From positions 1,984,001-2,048,000 of the forward strand of contig NC_018025.1 of assembly GCF_000266945.1 (NCBI RefSeq): a stretch of 64,000 nucleotides of DNA, in the 5' to 3' direction. The DNA comes from Desulfomonile tiedjei DSM 6799. GTDB taxonomy: Bacteria > Desulfobacterota > Desulfomonilia > Desulfomonilales > Desulfomonilaceae. How positions within the stretch are numbered: position 1 is the first letter of the stretch; each line of letters begins with the position of its first letter. Shown piece by piece: positions 38,015 to 46,075 of the stretch. The notes under the pieces were generated by a model. That model worked only from the letters and a program-made list of their open reading frames with translations. It did not search any database and was not told where the DNA came from. Made by a program: the position numbers and the translations under genes.

Positions 38015-38072
38015 GTAGGGGCGGACCCGCGTGTCCGCCCAAAATCAGGCTGACGCGTCGGCCTGCACCTAC
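38015..38072. repeat. GTAGGGGC palindromic repeat at the RAYT 3' end
   Basis: GTAGGGGCGGACCCGCGTGTCCGCCC... ending GCACCTAC, just past the stop codon of the RAYT fragment. The same type of repeat lies inside that gene at 38295-38353. Confidence 0.8.
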
Positions 38073-38518
38073 CGTACTTCAGCATTTTGCCGATAGTTCG
38101 GGTTCTCGGGATCTTTGGGCCACTGACCAGGGTTCGCTTCAATATAGGTTCGTATTGCATGAAGTGCCTTTTCATTTCGAATCACGTGTTCGTAATAATT
38201 TCGCTGCCAGAGTTTGGCCTCAGATAAACGGTTCTTCTTTGCGTGACGAATGTACTCGTTGGTAGTCATTGTCTTAAACCATTGTATGATTTTGGGTAGA
38301 TGCGCACCTTCGTGTGCGCCCAAAATCGGGCAGACGCGCCGGTCTGCCCCTACTATGACAATGATTCCATGAAAATGGTTGGGCATGATCACATATGCAT
38401 CTGTCTCAATGTATGAAAACTTGCTTTCTATAGTGTTTCTCAAAAGTTTTGAAGCAATCCGATACCAGCACTGAAGAGTATCAGTAGCGCCCGGCGTCCC
38501 TTGTATGTTTCTGTCCAT
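38069..38518 (-). pseudogene. RAYT (REP-associated tyrosine transposase), C-terminal remnant
   Basis: The frame contains the HUH-type motif YVIMPNHFHGIIVIV, then KIIQWFKTMTTNEYIRHAKK, LWQRNYYEHVIRNEKAL with the catalytic-type Tyr, and IEANPGQWPKDPENP. These identify the C-terminal two-thirds of the TnpA_REP/RAYT family (Y1 transposase-like single-strand nucleases that move REP palindromes). The N-terminal domain is missing: the frame runs on to 38845 through sequence belonging to the IS110 leader, which is not coding-like. A GTAGGGGC palindrome (38295-38353) is inserted in frame after HGIIVIV. The N-terminal fragment at 39886-40125, on the far side of the IS110 element and in the same direction, may be its other half. 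Confidence 0.75.
38295..38353. repeat. GTAGGGGC-type palindrome inside the RAYT coding sequence
   Basis: GGTAGATGCGCACCTTCGTG...GTCTGCCCCTAC, an imperfect palindrome of the same family as 38015-38072. It keeps the reading frame and adds about 20 residues (from GADRRVCP to GAHLP) in the loop after the HUH motif. Confidence 0.75.
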
Positions 38519-38589
38519 GAAGTACTGAATCTCTGGAACCGGTACCGAGCTGAGGGGAGGGGCTGATACTGGATCAATGATACGAGGTA

Positions 38590-38770
38590 CTTCAAAAAAT
38601 AGGACTCTTGGTTGCCAAGATATAAGAGTCCTGATAGAGGGGGGATGCACGTCTGTCAGACTCTCTGCAGGAGTCGGGCAGAGGCACCGGTAGATCGTTC
38701 GTCCCTTGGTCCTCTGAGACTGCCCGGCAGCTGGATCACCGGAGGCCTTCGTGTAAAAAGCCCGAACAGT
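38590..38770 (+). ncRNA. Candidate bridge RNA in the IS110 leader
   Basis: Two hairpins stand in the leader before the transposase: AGGACTCTT (38601-38609) with AAGAGTCCT (38624-38632), and GGGCAGAGG (38676-38684) with CCTCTG (38711-38716) and CTGCCC (38720-38725), which leaves a large internal loop; a small GACTC/GAGTC stem (38659-38675) precedes the second. IS110 elements such as IS621 make a bridge RNA from this region whose loops pair with target and donor DNA. Identity and ends are inferred; I cannot assign the guide loops. Confidence 0.45.
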
Positions 38771-38819
38771 CGCCTGGACTCGTTGAGAAGTCCGTATCCA
38801 CAAGGGTGGGATGTTACAC

Positions 38820-39761
38820 ATGCATGAAGAAGTTTTTGTTGGCATAGATATCTCTAAAGATCAGTTGGATGCGCATGTGCTGCCAAAAGGCATGCACACC
38901 ACCGTCAAGAATGACACTCAAGGCATCGACTCGCTGATTGAGATCCTCCACGCAGAGACCCCCATGGTAATCGTGATGGAAGCCACCGGAGGCTACGAGA
39001 TAACCGTTGCGGCCCAGTTAGGTCTCGCCGGCCTGCCGATCGCTGTCGTCAACCCTGGTCAGGTGCGGGACTTTGCCAAAGGCATCGGAAAACTCGCCAA
39101 GACAGACGCCATCGATGCTTATGTGCTGGCACGCTTTGCCCAAACGGTTAGGCCCATACCGAAGCCGCTGCCAACGGAGGACGAAAAGCAAATCAAGGAA
39201 CTCGTAACACGTCGAAAGCAGCTTGTTGATTTGCGTGCATCAGAAAAGAATCGCCTCCATCGAGCCCGTTCCAATCGCGTGCAGCGCAGCATTCAAACGG
39301 TCATAGCAGCCCTAGATAAGGAAATCGAAGACATCGATAAAGATGTCGATGACCTTATCAGGAAATCGCCTCTGTGGCGTGAAACAGAGGAACTCCTCCG
39401 AACCTTCAAAGGCGTGGGCCCCATAACTGCCAGAGTGCTCATGGCAAAACTGCCCGAACTGGGACATGTCAGCCGTCATGAAATCAGTCGCCTCGTCGGC
39501 CTGGCGCCTCTCAACAAAGACAGCGGAAAGAAGAAAGGCAAGCGCGAGATTTCGGGTGGACGGGCGGATGTACGCTCAACCCTGTATATGGCTGCAGTCG
39601 CGGCCATAACGTCCAATGTAGTCATCAAGCCTTTCTATCAACGCCTCATTGAGGCTGGAAAACCTTTCAAGGTTGCCATCACGGCTTGTATGCGTAAGAT
39701 GATCGTCATCCTAAACGCAATGCTCAAGAAAAAACAGCCTTTCCAGGTAGTTTTTCCTTGA
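38820..39761 (+). CDS. IS110-family transposase (recombinase)
   Basis: 314 residues from ATG 38820 (the frame opens at 38811). The N-terminal DEDD RuvC-like domain shows VGIDISKDQLDAHV (first Asp), MEATGGYE (Glu) and KTDAIDAYVLARFA (Asp pair); a coiled-coil linker follows (about 110-190), then transposase domain 20 with FKGVGPITARVLMAKLPELG and the conserved SGGRADVRSTLYMAA carrying the candidate catalytic Ser. Length is normal and the gene looks intact. IS110 enzymes cut and join DNA under guidance of an element-encoded RNA and often choose REP palindromes. It follows the leader described above. Confidence 0.95.
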   Translation: MHEEVFVGIDISKDQLDAHVLPKGMHTTVKNDTQGIDSLIEILHAETPMVIVMEATGGYEITVAAQLGLAGLPIAVVNPGQVRDFAKGIGKLAKTDAIDAYVLARFAQTVRPIPKPLPTEDEKQIKELVTRRKQLVDLRASEKNRLHRARSNRVQRSIQTVIAALDKEIEDIDKDVDDLIRKSPLWRETEELLRTFKGVGPITARVLMAKLPELGHVSRHEISRLVGLAPLNKDSGKKKGKREISGGRADVRSTLYMAAVAAITSNVVIKPFYQRLIEAGKPFKVAITACMRKMIVILNAMLKKKQPFQVVFP

Positions 39762-40125: not shown

Positions 40126-40347
40126 GCAAGAGCTGTCCGGAGAGAGTATTTCGTAATTTTGGTCCTGATTGCCAATACACTATCAGATGCAATGTGGCTT
40201 CCTCCAGCACAAGATTTCACTCGCTTATTCCCCTGATAATTTTTCTTGACATCTGATCCTCTCATTGCCATGGTAATGTTCTTCTGAGTGGCTGGCTTAC
40301 AGAGCAGTTTCAGCACTCTTTGATTGGCTTATATGCGGGGGAATGCA

Positions 40348-43077
40348 ATGCACATGCAATGTGACCAGAGATCATGGAAGGGTGGGGTACGCGCACTTTT
40401 CCTCGAACAGCTTGAAGACCGGATCGTCCTCGATGGAGCTGTGGCTGACACTCAAGATATTCAAGAATCTCAAGATACCGGCAATACAGTAGACACACTC
40501 GGATGGATTTCCGCGGGCAACGGCTGGTGGTACGAAGATACCGGCAGCGGCTGGTGGTTTAACGACCAGACTCATTGGTGGTTCAATGATATCACCGGCT
40601 GGTGGTGGAACGAGAGCGATGGCTGGTGGTTCAAGCCGGATAATGGATTCGATTTCTGGTATCACGGGGAGCACCAGTACTGGGCCCATGAGATTTCCAC
40701 AGGATTCTGGTTCTGGTGGGATGATGTAGACAATACCGGCTGGGAAAAAGCCTGGGAGTGGTTTTACGATTATGACCTTTGGACCTGGGTCTACAATGAC
40801 TGGAACGGAAGCCAATATTTTTCGGATGACGACCATTTCTTCTATCAGGATCATGCGAATTCGGAGTGGTGGCAATGGGGAGGAGTCAGTTGGTCGCAGG
40901 TCCACAATGAGATGCAACAGATTCCGGACCAATGGGACATGAATTTCTGTGAAAGCTATATGACAGTAGTCGGGGGCGATCTCTATCTTAATGCTTATGA
41001 CAATTACCACTGGGGAACTTGGAAATACGACCCTCAAACAGGTAACTTGACTGAGATATTACAGGGCAACAAACAGTACCTGGCCGAATTAGGCGGAGAC
41101 CTGTACTTCGTCAAGGCTGCCTCTTACGATTACAGACTTGCTAAATATGATCCGGAGTCCGGCACAGTGTCAGAAATCGCTGGGGGACACACGTGGATTG
41201 ACGCAGTAGAAGATTTGACAGCATTTGACGGCGATTTATATTTCAGCGCAGTTGACGCTGCGCACGGGCGTGAGCTTTGGAAATATGACTCGGAGACAGA
41301 CACCGTTTCATTGGTAGCCGACATACGTCAAGGTTCAACCGGTTCCGGTCCTGGAGACTTCATAGTGTACGACGGTGATTTATATCTCGCCGCGGATGAC
41401 AGTTGGTATTCCAGTCAAGATGACAGCTTGCATGGCCGTGAGCTTTGGAAGTATGACTCTGTGTCCAATACAGTCTCACTGGTAGCTGACATAGAGCCGG
41501 GATACTATGGTTCCAATCCTAAGGCATTTGCGGTATTCGATGGAGATTTGTATTTTACTGCCTGCTACTTGGGCGACCAACAATATACTCATTCTTATCT
41601 CTGGAGGTATGATGCTCAATCGAATGTAGTCTCCCAGTGCGCTGATTTTGGGTACCACACAATTTGCGGACTTACCGTGCTAAACGAAAAATTATATTTC
41701 ATAAACGAGTACAGCCAGTATTTGTGTGAATATGATCCTGTATCTGACACCGTGTTCCGGATAGAGCCAATCCCAAATGTAAAATTTACATATGACGACA
41801 TGACAGCGCTTGACGGGGATCTGTGTATCTGGAACGGTGACTCGCTCTGGAAATACAGTCCGGATCCTCAACTGAGCCAGTCACCTGATTATGAAGTCTT
41901 CTGGGATGACCATCGTTTTTGGAAGGAGGTTTCCGGCGAATGGTTCTATAGCGCGAATTTGTTGGATTGGACACAGTATACGGACGGGGACGTTCACTTT
42001 GCGCCGGGACTCGGACAGATCCTGGGCTCAAGTGATGGCGTCAATCTTGAAGCCGTAAATGGAAGCCTATTCTTTACCGATGACCAATATGGCTCGACGG
42101 GCTGGCACAGCACTTCCGAATTCGATCCTCGCCTGCATGACGGCTGGGGGTACGAGGGAGAGCCGGTGCATCACGATTTCTTGTGGTCCGATTTTGATGG
42201 AGACGGAAACGTAGAGATTAAGTACCAGATTATCGGCAACTGGACCAACAATCTCAAACTCATTTACACGGTTTGGAACCCAAGTCCTGATTTTAACGAA
42301 CAAGTCTGGCTGGGGACAGACACAAATAGTATAAGCATATTCTTCATGTCTTCTGAAGCCTGGGATGACGGTCACGGAGAGTATAATTATGTTCAACAAA
42401 ATGTGCGGGTGATCAAATACGATCCAGCAGATTGCGACGGATACAACACATTTAATACATATACAATGGTCTATTATACCGAACTTATCTCCTACGCTGA
42501 AAGCGCGTGGATAAAAGACATAGGGTTTTTGGAACATGGAAATCCCGATCAGTTCAATGTCGGCGAAGACACTATTACTCATACATCCATTGACGGTTAC
42601 GAACCTCTTTTCCGGCGGCTTGCGGATGTGATGAGTCCAGGGGCCGAAATCCAGATATGGCATTGTTCCGTGGCGGGAAATCCAGACGGCCGCACAATGT
42701 TGCAGGACATAGCTCTGTGGACAAATGCATATGTTTATGCCAGCGCAGACCTGACCGTTATGCCTTATGGAGATTCAACATCGGCGAATCCGTATGGCGA
42801 TTGGACACTGGAAGTATGCTATGGACCTACAGGACAAATTAACCAAAACACTATTGATCCATTGTTTGATATTAGTGGTTTCAATGCGGCTTTTGAGGAT
42901 TTTAACCAGTACTCATGGCCGGACGGATACGGATATTGCGTGCACGAGGAAATGCCCTATCAAGGAGATGACTACTGGTGGACTTTCAATTACTCCAACG
43001 GGAAGTGCACTGCAGTAAGAGACGGAGATAGTTTTACATTGCAATGGGAATATTACGGGGCAGAAAACCCTCAGTAA
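40348..43077 (+). CDS. Large Trp-rich protein with LEPR-XLL-like N-terminus, ELWKYD repeats and DUF4347-like domain
   Basis: 909 residues from ATG 40348, with GGGGGA five bases upstream (the frame opens at TTG 40324). Parts in order: a short basic leader; FLEQLEDRIVLDG (about 18-30), which resembles the LEPR-XLL motif of large exported proteins; a Trp-rich region (about 52-182) with about 26 Trp in units like GWWYEDTGSGWWFND; several GDLYFSA..GRELWKYDSETDTVSLVADI repeats (about 205-510), likely a beta-propeller; a second WDDHRFWKEVSGEWF block (about 525-545); and a C-terminal DUF4347-like domain with LEHGNPDQF (His730) and IQIWHCSVAGNPDGR (Cys773), a caspase-like His/Cys pair. It is probably exported or surface-attached. 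No secretion gene is adjacent. Function unknown; a self-cleaving or adhesive role is a guess. Confidence 0.75.
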   Translation: MHMQCDQRSWKGGVRALFLEQLEDRIVLDGAVADTQDIQESQDTGNTVDTLGWISAGNGWWYEDTGSGWWFNDQTHWWFNDITGWWWNESDGWWFKPDNGFDFWYHGEHQYWAHEISTGFWFWWDDVDNTGWEKAWEWFYDYDLWTWVYNDWNGSQYFSDDDHFFYQDHANSEWWQWGGVSWSQVHNEMQQIPDQWDMNFCESYMTVVGGDLYLNAYDNYHWGTWKYDPQTGNLTEILQGNKQYLAELGGDLYFVKAASYDYRLAKYDPESGTVSEIAGGHTWIDAVEDLTAFDGDLYFSAVDAAHGRELWKYDSETDTVSLVADIRQGSTGSGPGDFIVYDGDLYLAADDSWYSSQDDSLHGRELWKYDSVSNTVSLVADIEPGYYGSNPKAFAVFDGDLYFTACYLGDQQYTHSYLWRYDAQSNVVSQCADFGYHTICGLTVLNEKLYFINEYSQYLCEYDPVSDTVFRIEPIPNVKFTYDDMTALDGDLCIWNGDSLWKYSPDPQLSQSPDYEVFWDDHRFWKEVSGEWFYSANLLDWTQYTDGDVHFAPGLGQILGSSDGVNLEAVNGSLFFTDDQYGSTGWHSTSEFDPRLHDGWGYEGEPVHHDFLWSDFDGDGNVEIKYQIIGNWTNNLKLIYTVWNPSPDFNEQVWLGTDTNSISIFFMSSEAWDDGHGEYNYVQQNVRVIKYDPADCDGYNTFNTYTMVYYTELISYAESAWIKDIGFLEHGNPDQFNVGEDTITHTSIDGYEPLFRRLADVMSPGAEIQIWHCSVAGNPDGRTMLQDIALWTNAYVYASADLTVMPYGDSTSANPYGDWTLEVCYGPTGQINQNTIDPLFDISGFNAAFEDFNQYSWPDGYGYCVHEEMPYQGDDYWWTFNYSNGKCTAVRDGDSFTLQWEYYGAENPQ

Positions 43078-43285: not shown

Positions 43286-45901
43286 TCAACTCTGCACGAA
43301 AATCCTCGTGACCCGCGGGGAAATCTTACATGCTATTTCATAGTTAATGGTGTTACCGTTCGCAGCGATATCGTCCGGGAGAATCTCTTCGTCCCCCTGT
43401 TTGCCTATGAGCACCACTTCATCGCCGACCCGTGCCTCGGGGATCTCAGTGACATCTATCATGATAGTGTCCATGCAGACGGTACCCACTACAGGGGCTC
43501 TCTTTCCATGTACGAGGACCTCTCCTACATTGGACTGAAAGCGTGGGTATCCATCGTTGTACCCGACATGCAACGTAGCTATGCGGCAATTCCGGCTTGT
43601 GACATATCGTCGATTGTAAGAGATGCATCGGCCCGGAGGGTGTTCCTTCAATTGAGCAATCTTGGTGGTAAACGCGATTACCTGTTCCAGTTGAATGTAT
43701 GATTTGACAGCCTCAGACGGATACATGCCGTAAATGGCCAAACCGGGCCGAACCATTGTGTAATGCGTCTGGGGAAATCGTACGAGAGCAGAGGTATTCG
43801 CTGCGTGAATATACCTGAATGAATGCCCGCGTTGCTTCAGTTCGGAAAGCAAAGCTTCAAATGCGGTAATCTGCTGGAGTGTATAATCGTCGCTGGCTGG
43901 ATCGTCTGCAGAGGAAAAGTGAGTCATGATACCTTCAACTGCCAGATTCCGGAAACAAAGGACCTGCTCGATAAAAGGAACCGCATCTTCAACCCAGATT
44001 CCGGAACGTCCCATGCCGGTATCGATTTTCACGTGGACCGGTATTTTCCTGCGGCCGGTAGCTGCACGATCGAGCGCTGCCGCGGTCTCCAGGGATGCAA
44101 CCACACATGAAAGATCGTGTTTTATGATTTTGTCCACTTCCTCGGGCAGCACGTTGAAAACCAGAATCGGGGCATCGATCCGATTTTCGCGTAACGTTGT
44201 GCCTTCATCAGGAAAGGCAACGGCAAGATAATTTGCTCCGTTTTCCAGAGCCACTCTGGATGTCCTGATGGAATCGTTGCCATAGCCGAAACTCTTTACT
44301 ACAGACATTATGGCGACGTCTTCACCCACAATGCCCCGTATCTTCTTCACGTTTGCCGCAATGGCATCCAGGTTCACCAACAGGCGGGTTGCACCAATGG
44401 AACCGACAAGCTCCTTTGCGATACGTTCCAGCCGAAACCAGCGCGAACCTTTGAAAAGCACCACATCACCGCGGTTCATGATCTTCTCAAGTTCCAAAGC
44501 CGCTTCTTTGTGGCTGCGAGTATGAGTGATTCTCTTGGGATTCATGCCTTCCGTGGCAGCGGCATGACCGATTATTGCCGCGTTTTCTCCCACCGTAATT
44601 AGTTGATCCACCTGACTGCGTACCACTTCTTTGCCCACAGCAAGGTGCTCTTCTCTGCTGTGGAGACCGAGATCGAGCATTTCACTGAGTATAGCTATCT
44701 TGCGGCGGCCTTTACCGACCTTTGCCAGGACGTCCAGAGCGCCTTTGACGGACACAGGGTCCGAATTGTACGTGTCATTGATGAGAGTCACCCCGGTCAC
44801 GGTAGTGTGCATCTCGAGCCGCATCGGGGATGGTCGGAAATCCTTTAATCCCTCTGCAATGGCTTCAGGAGAAGCTCCCAGGAGTGTGGCGGCTGCAGAC
44901 GCGGCAAGAGCATTCAGCACGTTGAATCTTCCCGCCACGGGCAACATGATCTGCTGCGCATTGCCGAAAATCTGCATAATGAACTGATGCCCTCTGTCCG
45001 GGATAGAAGTGATATTCTCCGCCCTTACGTCCGCTTGCGGGGACATACCGAATGTGACCACCCGAGCTTTACTGTCCTGCGCGAGCTCCATGCTCAAAGG
45101 ATCGTCTGCATTCAGCACGAGAAAGGAATCTTCCTTGAGATTCTTGAATAATCTCCGCTTTTCCGCGATCGTATTCTCAAGAGTCCCCAGACCGCCGATA
45201 TGCGCTTTGCTGATGATTGTCAGAATTCCATGGTCCGGACGGATCATCCGTTCCAGCCGGTCCATTTCCCCAGGTAGACTAATTCCTGCCTCAATGATCG
45301 CCACCTGGTGTTCCGGTCGCATCCCGAGCAATCCCAGAGCTGCACCTATCTGCGTATTATACGAAAGGGGAGACCTGTAGGTTTTTCGCTCAAGGCAGAG
45401 TATAGAAGCGAGCATTTCCTTGACGAGAGTCTTGCCGTTGCTCCCGGTGATTCCGATAACAGGATATCTGAACCGATTTCGGTATGTGGCCGCAAGGTCC
45501 TGTAATGCCTGCAAAGTGTCCTGCACCTGGATCAGTGTGGCATCAGGCCAGGAGCCGTTTTGAAAGCAATCGTCCCGACTTGCCACAACGGCGCGTGCTC
45601 CGGCAGAAAGAGCATCTTCGACAAAATCGTTTCCATTGAAATGCTCGCCTCTGATTGCCCAGAAGATGAAGTCTTCGCTCATGGGTTTACGAGTATCGAT
45701 GGATATGCCGGAAATCGGGCCGGCAAGCGGTCCTTGAACTCGAATCGGCTTAAGAATCCCTATTAATTCACTCAGATCCAAAAAACCCGTGTTGGCAATT
45801 CCCTGTTTCTCGACGCTATTGGATCGGGCACACGCGGAGACCGGATCGACACACTCAGCGTCTGCGATAGGCGTCGAATTCTTGGTGGTTTCTGAAATCA
45901 T
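43286..45901 (-). CDS. murF-alr: Bifunctional UDP-N-acetylmuramoyl-tripeptide:D-Ala-D-Ala ligase / alanine racemase
   Basis: 871-residue fusion. The MurF half (about 1-475) has ISIDTRKPMSEDFIFWAIRG, the ATP loop GITGSNGKTLVKEMLASIL, NDTYNSDPVSVKGALDVL and HTRSHKEAALEL. The racemase half (about 500-871) has the PLP Lys in VMSVVKSFGYGND-like IMSVVKSFGYG, HVKIDTGMGRSGI, catalytic-type Tyr in SYNRRY, GYNDGYPR and GTVCMDTIMIDVTE. It would both make D-alanine and attach D-Ala-D-Ala to the peptidoglycan precursor. Such fusions are best known in Bacteroidetes. ATG 45901 is preferred over the longer frame to 45979. No other mur gene is adjacent. Confidence 0.93.
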   Translation of the reverse strand: MISETTKNSTPIADAECVDPVSACARSNSVEKQGIANTGFLDLSELIGILKPIRVQGPLAGPISGISIDTRKPMSEDFIFWAIRGEHFNGNDFVEDALSAGARAVVASRDDCFQNGSWPDATLIQVQDTLQALQDLAATYRNRFRYPVIGITGSNGKTLVKEMLASILCLERKTYRSPLSYNTQIGAALGLLGMRPEHQVAIIEAGISLPGEMDRLERMIRPDHGILTIISKAHIGGLGTLENTIAEKRRLFKNLKEDSFLVLNADDPLSMELAQDSKARVVTFGMSPQADVRAENITSIPDRGHQFIMQIFGNAQQIMLPVAGRFNVLNALAASAAATLLGASPEAIAEGLKDFRPSPMRLEMHTTVTGVTLINDTYNSDPVSVKGALDVLAKVGKGRRKIAILSEMLDLGLHSREEHLAVGKEVVRSQVDQLITVGENAAIIGHAAATEGMNPKRITHTRSHKEAALELEKIMNRGDVVLFKGSRWFRLERIAKELVGSIGATRLLVNLDAIAANVKKIRGIVGEDVAIMSVVKSFGYGNDSIRTSRVALENGANYLAVAFPDEGTTLRENRIDAPILVFNVLPEEVDKIIKHDLSCVVASLETAAALDRAATGRRKIPVHVKIDTGMGRSGIWVEDAVPFIEQVLCFRNLAVEGIMTHFSSADDPASDDYTLQQITAFEALLSELKQRGHSFRYIHAANTSALVRFPQTHYTMVRPGLAIYGMYPSEAVKSYIQLEQVIAFTTKIAQLKEHPPGRCISYNRRYVTSRNCRIATLHVGYNDGYPRFQSNVGEVLVHGKRAPVVGTVCMDTIMIDVTEIPEARVGDEVVLIGKQGDEEILPDDIAANGNTINYEIACKISPRVTRIFVQS

Positions 45902-46075
45902 GATCGAAATTATCCCCTCAAATCTTCCACCGCTGAAAAACAGTGAAAAAGAAGCGTTATGATGAATGTACAGACACAAGCCGCTCCTACGGGCAAGCCC
46001 TTACCATACTGCGGCTGAAAACACAATGTCGGCAGTTCCCGTCCAGCCAGAGCGACTGGAAAATACAGTGATTAT

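Follow-up and report, generated by a model that had tools for sequence, protein, structure and literature searches.

The 64,000-nucleotide window of Desulfomonile tiedjei DSM 6799 analysed here probably encodes a protein that is exported to the cell surface and has a tail resembling a cysteine protease. Its N-terminal part, consisting of a LEPR-like leader and a Trp-rich repeat region, is by sequence comparison a portable module with an undescribed repeat type, which we found at 21 loci of the same genome in front of different kinds of protein body.

The open reading frame (40324-43077, forward strand) comprises 917 codons when opened at TTG 40324. The downstream ATG at 40348, with a GGGGG stretch just 5' of it (40338-40342, by eye), is the more plausible start and would give a product of 909 amino acids. 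Residues are nevertheless counted from TTG 40324 in the following, and His730 and Cys773 of the initial annotation thus correspond to His738 and Cys781. Every element named in that annotation was found in the ORF (Table 1). The proposed LEPR-XLL-like start LEQLEDRIVLDG is present, and only its score against the family model is borderline. The Trp richness, estimated at about 26 Trp in about 130 residues, came out at 27 among the 131 residues 60-190 (point binomial probability of ~10^-23 at 1.3% Trp). The repeated GRELWKYD units occur in two exact copies together with degenerate ones, and the protein belongs to the ELWxxDGT family (NCBIfam TIGR04534, 98.1 bits, cut-off 65) with an additional Pfam match to Kelch_6 (32.7 bits, cut-off 25.3). 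The DUF4347-like domain placed at the C-terminus is likewise a member of its family (PF14252, 54.4 bits in the Pfam scan and 57.7 bits in the genome search, cut-off 24.6), and the quoted His and Cys lie inside it. For RTX calcium-binding repeats, HemolysinCabind did not match the window protein at E ≤ 1; such repeats are present in a 4321-aa module protein and in a 3148-aa DUF4347 ORF of the same genome. A PADLOC search of four proteins for defence systems returned no match at E ≤ 0.01.

Table 1. Position of the coding sequence and its structural elements in the window (residues counted from TTG 40324).
Feature	Coordinates	Strand	Remarks
CDS, multidomain protein, probably exported	40348..43077	+	909 aa; ORF open from TTG 40324
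LEPR-like leader motif, residues 25-42	40396..40449	+	NF012209 borderline; E, L, E, R, L invariant in 19/19 modules
Five octamer aromatic repeats starting WW, residues 68-108	40525..40647	+	spacing 9, 8, 8, 8
Longer aromatic repeat region (type A), residues 109-190	40648..40893	+	own-genome module searches and alignment
ELWxxDGT-type beta-propeller, residues ~205-515, ~7 blades by eye	40936..41868	+	TIGR04534 98.1 bits, 2 stretches
Short extra aromatic stretch, residues 523-552	41890..41979	+	by eye
Module ahead of DUF4347, residues 560-670, common to 518-aa paralog	42001..42333	+	39% identity over residues 523-860
C-terminal DUF4347 domain, residues 671-838 (Pfam match 728-836)	42334..42837	+	PF14252
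His738 codon	42535..42537	+	alignments
Cys781 codon	42664..42666	+	alignments

The 21 loci were obtained by searching the genome with residues 23-187 and reading the ORFs around the matches; the count is our own and takes in the divergent 224-, 319- and 518-aa members as well as two identical copies of 426 aa. In an alignment of 19 modules (A1), the leader positions E4, L6, E7, R9 and L12 and the tryptophans W71, W105, W116 and W122 are invariant. The bodies that follow vary and include DUF4347, cadherin-like/Big_9, FG-GAP, polysaccharide deacetylase, PKD, RTX and ELWxxDGT types. Over the module, Pfam matches were absent from the window protein (E ≤ 1) and from 19 of the 20 other loci (E ≤ 0.01; of the identical 426-aa pair, one copy was scanned). 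The tree of the 19 modules is mostly unresolved, with one well-supported inner branch in 16; on this tree the DUF4347 bodies require 4 changes against a shuffle mean of 4.6, a value as low being reached in 172 of 500 shuffles. Single-sequence AlphaFold prediction of the module reached a pLDDT of 44.8 and gave no usable structure, so that any fold or attachment role assigned to the module is a guess. The leader with its Trp region is the odder part of the protein, more so than the order of its domains. This 21-locus family was absent from the initial annotation, and it is invisible from a single window.

The full module appears confined to this genome within the sets that were covered. When 60 relatives were searched with the window protein, residues 1-205 were matched in its own genome only. 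Among 42 genomes of the class, own genome included, four matched A1 at E ≤ 0.001, and three of these (G006, G008 and G009) did so only in the leader columns 1-38. At the level of the phylum (395 genomes, own included, with at most eight candidates per genome scored), only the own genome and the leader match of G006 were recovered. Pattern searches gave 52 stretches in the genome_contigs collection, none of which was confirmed (two short patterns were used, and the own genome possibly lies outside this collection), and 113 in viral_contigs, none confirmed as a relative of the Trp module.

Scores of the leader against LEPR-XLL (NF012209, cut-off 17) were 12.1 bits by hmmscan, 16.9 bits in the genome search and 17.3 bits with its neighbours in frame. 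Other members of the module family reach up to 20.4 bits, and in the same genome search 7 of 14 control genomes had matches at E ≤ 1, one of them above the cut-off. Proteins with the same kinds of body were found in the congener G001 and in genome G011. Like the window protein, these have N-terminal aromatic repeats, and some carry a C-terminal DUF4347 or an ELWxxDGT body; unlike it, they have, judging by eye and by hydropathy, a Sec-type signal peptide at the N-terminus in place of the LEPR-like leader, and behind it repeats of ~65 aa. The exchange can be followed in one pair of proteins, a LEPR-led 402-aa paralog and a Sec-led 557-aa protein of the congener, which share 34% identity over 217 aa (1e-28) and a collinear aromatic match (E 0.001); in the tree, their DUF4347 domains form one group (99/94). 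Close to the start, the 13-residue hydropathy peaked at 0.53-1.79 in all 21 LEPR-Trp loci and at 2.11-2.85 in all 11 Sec-type proteins with a complete start, the scan extending to 25 aa beyond the motif in the former set and to residue 130 in the latter; G001:C452, which is open-ended, and the LEPR-led G005:C71 were not part of this comparison. Because of this leader swap between the two genomes, the sequences suggest that the LEPR-like leader does the job of the signal peptide and acts as an export signal. Such a swap between sister genomes would also offer a direct way to test LEPR-XLL in this function.

The repeats behind the two kinds of leader could be compared at the profile level. Trimmed single repeats of the own genome (type A) and of the congener (type B) aligned with an hhalign probability of 80.8% and a score of 26.7, which exceeds all of 100 column shuffles (maximum 18.7), the reversed control giving 0.07%; this match is favoured by the choice of the type B segments, as they were picked with a pattern that we had written from the sequences. 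With whole alignments the probability was 5.0% (E 0.0079). Furthermore, the type B profile had no match in the own genome at E ≤ 0.01, and the Trp-module profile did not detect the ~65-aa repeats of G001 and G011 at E ≤ 0.001. Overall, there is moderate support in the sequences for homology of the type A and type B repeats.

The only lead towards a known domain came from the octamers, which are reminiscent of the OCRE domain of RBM5 and RBM10 with its aromatic octamer repeats. A profile search of the PDB gave weak OCRE matches over the octamer columns (E 0.037-0.054), and nine of the ten weak OCRE matches in the own genome fall in module proteins, at a loose threshold at which 5 of 14 control genomes also match. 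An assignment to OCRE itself was rejected, since the Pfam model (PF17780, cut-off 24.7) scored 10.9 bits at the window locus and 14.5 bits at best in the genome. OCRE binds proline-rich tails (PMC5127646). Because the Pfam model falls short of its cut-off, an OCRE-like role of the octamers is an analogy only.

Regarding the C-terminal domain, the positions of His738 and Cys781 are invariant in all 27 bacterial domains of alignment A4, window protein included. Both residues are kept in the 14 rows of a second alignment (A5, the window and 13 named loci) and in three weak own-genome domains outside A4 (ORFs of 360, 501 and 3148 aa). In contrast, one copy of a tandem DUF4347 pair in the congener (G001:C643b, L168:2649-4343, minus strand) has neither His nor Cys, showing that the dyad can be lost and that the domain can decay.

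The AF2 model of the DUF4347 region, built from A5, had a mean pLDDT of 71.9, with block means of 90-97 over fragment residues 91-190. The cysteine-protease-like fold anticipated for this domain agrees with its best structural match, the DUF4347 domain of Tce1 (PDB 9qpe chain G; Foldseek E 8.8e-5, VIA Z 12.8 over 156 residues). Other peptidases, of the Clan CD type, followed with best VIA Z values of 7.5 (CHAT), 7.3 (C11), 6.3 (caspase), 6.0 (legumain; Foldseek E 5.2e-4) and 6.0 (TcdB protease). As unrelated glutamate-receptor chains reach a Z of 6.5 in the same list, and the caution line of the tool is Z = 8, these further matches are weak when taken alone. At the profile level, the first PDB match of A4 was a eukaryotic ECT2L-like chain (PDB 11xu chain A1, 2.3e-10), and 9qpe_G came next (2e-6). 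The eukaryotic chain is peculiar in that it has no Cys and carries Asp at the position of the His. As to the suggestion that the two residues could superpose on a protease dyad, they fall on His186 and Cys240 of Tce1 in the profile alignment (hand-counted from chain start 110).

In the Tce1/Tce2 study, both proteins are considered putative cysteine proteases whose dyad resembles that of TcdB, His186/Cys240 is the putative dyad of Tce1, and the name DUF4347 is not used (PMC13323088). The same study reports that mutation of the predicted active site of Tce2 relieves its toxicity in yeast and that Tce1 is not toxic there (PMC13323088), so that the dyad might depend on activation or lack activity. 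Tce1 (PA0256) of Pseudomonas aeruginosa thus shares the DUF4347 fold and the equivalent His/Cys with our protein; it differs in being a T6SS effector carried in Hcp3 rings, whereas the domain here is C-terminal, in a propeller-containing protein that probably lies at the cell surface.

In a tree of 33 DUF4347 domains, the 10 C-terminal ones are split from the other 23 (support 97/93; split recovered in 98% of 200 bootstrap trees), with the caveats that the two sets were cut differently, that C_501, N_G055 and C_G011_440 have long branches and that C_360, C_402 and C_G011_440 are of unusual letter make-up. Of these 23, all but one are preceded in frame by a LEPR-like motif, at a distance of 26-160 aa (21 domains) or 374 aa (one domain); the remaining domain is cut by the end of its contig. 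Together with the reading of 17 proteins from 14 regions, among the 36 matches listed, this bears out the initial view that DUF4347 usually follows LEPR: 14 of the 16 DUF4347 proteins have this order, two are C-terminal (G001 and G011), and one without a DUF4347 match, G001:C55, had been included for its propeller. The accompanying remark that no described protein had the order seen here does not stand, as the 10 C-terminal domains, from three genomes of the family, form a group of their own. Several of them belong to own-genome proteins of a short LEPR-Trp-DUF4347 type, and the closest relative of the window domain is that of the 518-aa paralog (99/96). Because of this group, the C-terminal order can be taken as a recurring architecture of the family and not as a single chimera; and as the group lies partly in Sec-led proteins, DUF4347 does not depend on the leader. 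The LEPR-XLL/DUF4347 adhesin-like proteins of Desulfomonilaceae and Planctomycetota share the LEPR-like leader, DUF4347 and, in some, the ELWxxDGT repeats with the window protein. In them, DUF4347 comes after the leader and is then followed by ELWxxDGT (G009:C27, G008:C88 and G004:C24), whereas the window protein has the Trp module and the propeller first and a DUF4347 of the separate group.

Altogether, we infer roles in export, attachment and proteolysis, and a ligand for the Trp module, from these comparisons. The leader would direct export, as judged from the leader swap. The octamers and longer aromatic repeats, probably beta-structured, may attach the protein or bind a polymer, and the lineage has placed this module ahead of several kinds of body at its 21 loci. 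The ELWxxDGT propeller could recognise a partner, as its family suggests. Going by the alignments and the model, the C-terminal domain would be a cysteine-peptidase-like unit with a putative His738/Cys781 dyad, either a cysteine protease itself or derived from one, and would most likely process itself or neighbouring surface proteins.

A possible, though less likely, reading is that DUF4347 keeps the fold of a cysteine protease and serves in binding or structure, the protein being simply an adhesin. The ECT2L-like chain, which is the best PDB profile match in spite of its replaced dyad, would fit this, as would the congener paralog devoid of both residues and the adhesive-looking bodies elsewhere in the module family; against it speaks the invariance of His and Cys throughout A4 and in the three weak own-genome domains. 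If the domain is a peptidase, one could imagine that it cuts LEPR-led proteins at or near the leader motif, leader and protease forming one maturation system. The short distance from motif to domain in most non-C-terminal proteins, the LEPR-like motif seen by eye in two planctomycete-group rows of A5 and the five invariant leader residues point in this direction. We consider it unlikely all the same, since C-terminal DUF4347 domains also occur in Sec-led proteins in which no LEPR motif was seen. Gene decay, or a chimera in which IS-rich surroundings have fused unrelated protein parts, is highly improbable as an explanation of the ORF. Transposase genes of the IS110 and REP types do lie directly upstream, and the Trp module does sit on differing bodies across its family; however, the frame is free of stops over its 917 codons, His738 and Cys781 are intact, and the region ahead of DUF4347 recurs together with the domain in the 518-aa paralog. 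The reading we prefer is that of a protein exported to the surface whose tail resembles a cysteine protease.

A much wider extension of it must be called a long shot. Here, the leader would be a non-classical export signal replacing the Sec peptide, the Trp-octamer module a new, OCRE-analogous surface-anchoring fold, and the ~21 proteins a coat, possibly including the cell collar, that is matured by the C-terminal DUF4347 proteases. A link of the Trp-module proteins to the collar is speculation. The collar is described as a feature of the genus (PMC7773648), whereas searches of the congener G001 (86% complete) did not recover the Trp module. The own genome has a reductive-dehalogenase match, and G001 has none.

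Proteins of the LEPR-XLL and DUF4347 kinds turn up repeatedly in several phyla, but the two names are rare in print. The texts consulted that name them contain no functional test of a DUF4347 or LEPR surface protein. In what could be consulted of the literature on DUF4347, LEPR-XLL and the Desulfomonile tiedjei collar (PMC8262886, PMC9611531, PMC10868602, PMC7773648, PMC10989887), neither the module nor the architecture appears, and ELWxxDGT gave no literature match; as most subscription journals lie outside the scope of these searches, this absence is weak evidence. The Trp module hence adds an undescribed type of repeat, at 21 loci of one genome, and the C-terminal group, partly in Sec-led proteins, presents DUF4347 as a domain independent of the leader.

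Several observations on gene surroundings can be added. Directly upstream of the ORF, at 38069-39761, lie the ORFs of a REP-associated tyrosine transposase (minus strand) and of an IS110 RNA-guided transposase (plus strand), whose starts overlap. On the downstream side, 43286-45979 (minus strand) contains a gene in which MurF and alanine racemase are fused (NCBIfam PRK11930, 691.8 bits, below the cut-off of 804). Elsewhere in the genome, the identical 426-aa LEPR-Trp genes are located on a near-identical inverted duplication of at least 11.7 kb, the ends of which were not reached (L068 and L069, G000:C1 at ~5.104-5.116 and ~6.416-6.428 Mb). A LEPR-led ORF of 445 aa (L058:663-1997) overlaps, in another frame, the 3148-aa ORF with a C-terminal DUF4347 (L058:1819-11262), and this gene may be broken or mis-sequenced. 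Finally, the body of a 337-aa LEPR-Trp protein (L073:5815-6825, plus strand) weakly matches SEC10/PgrA surface-exclusion and YkwD models, at scores below their cut-offs.
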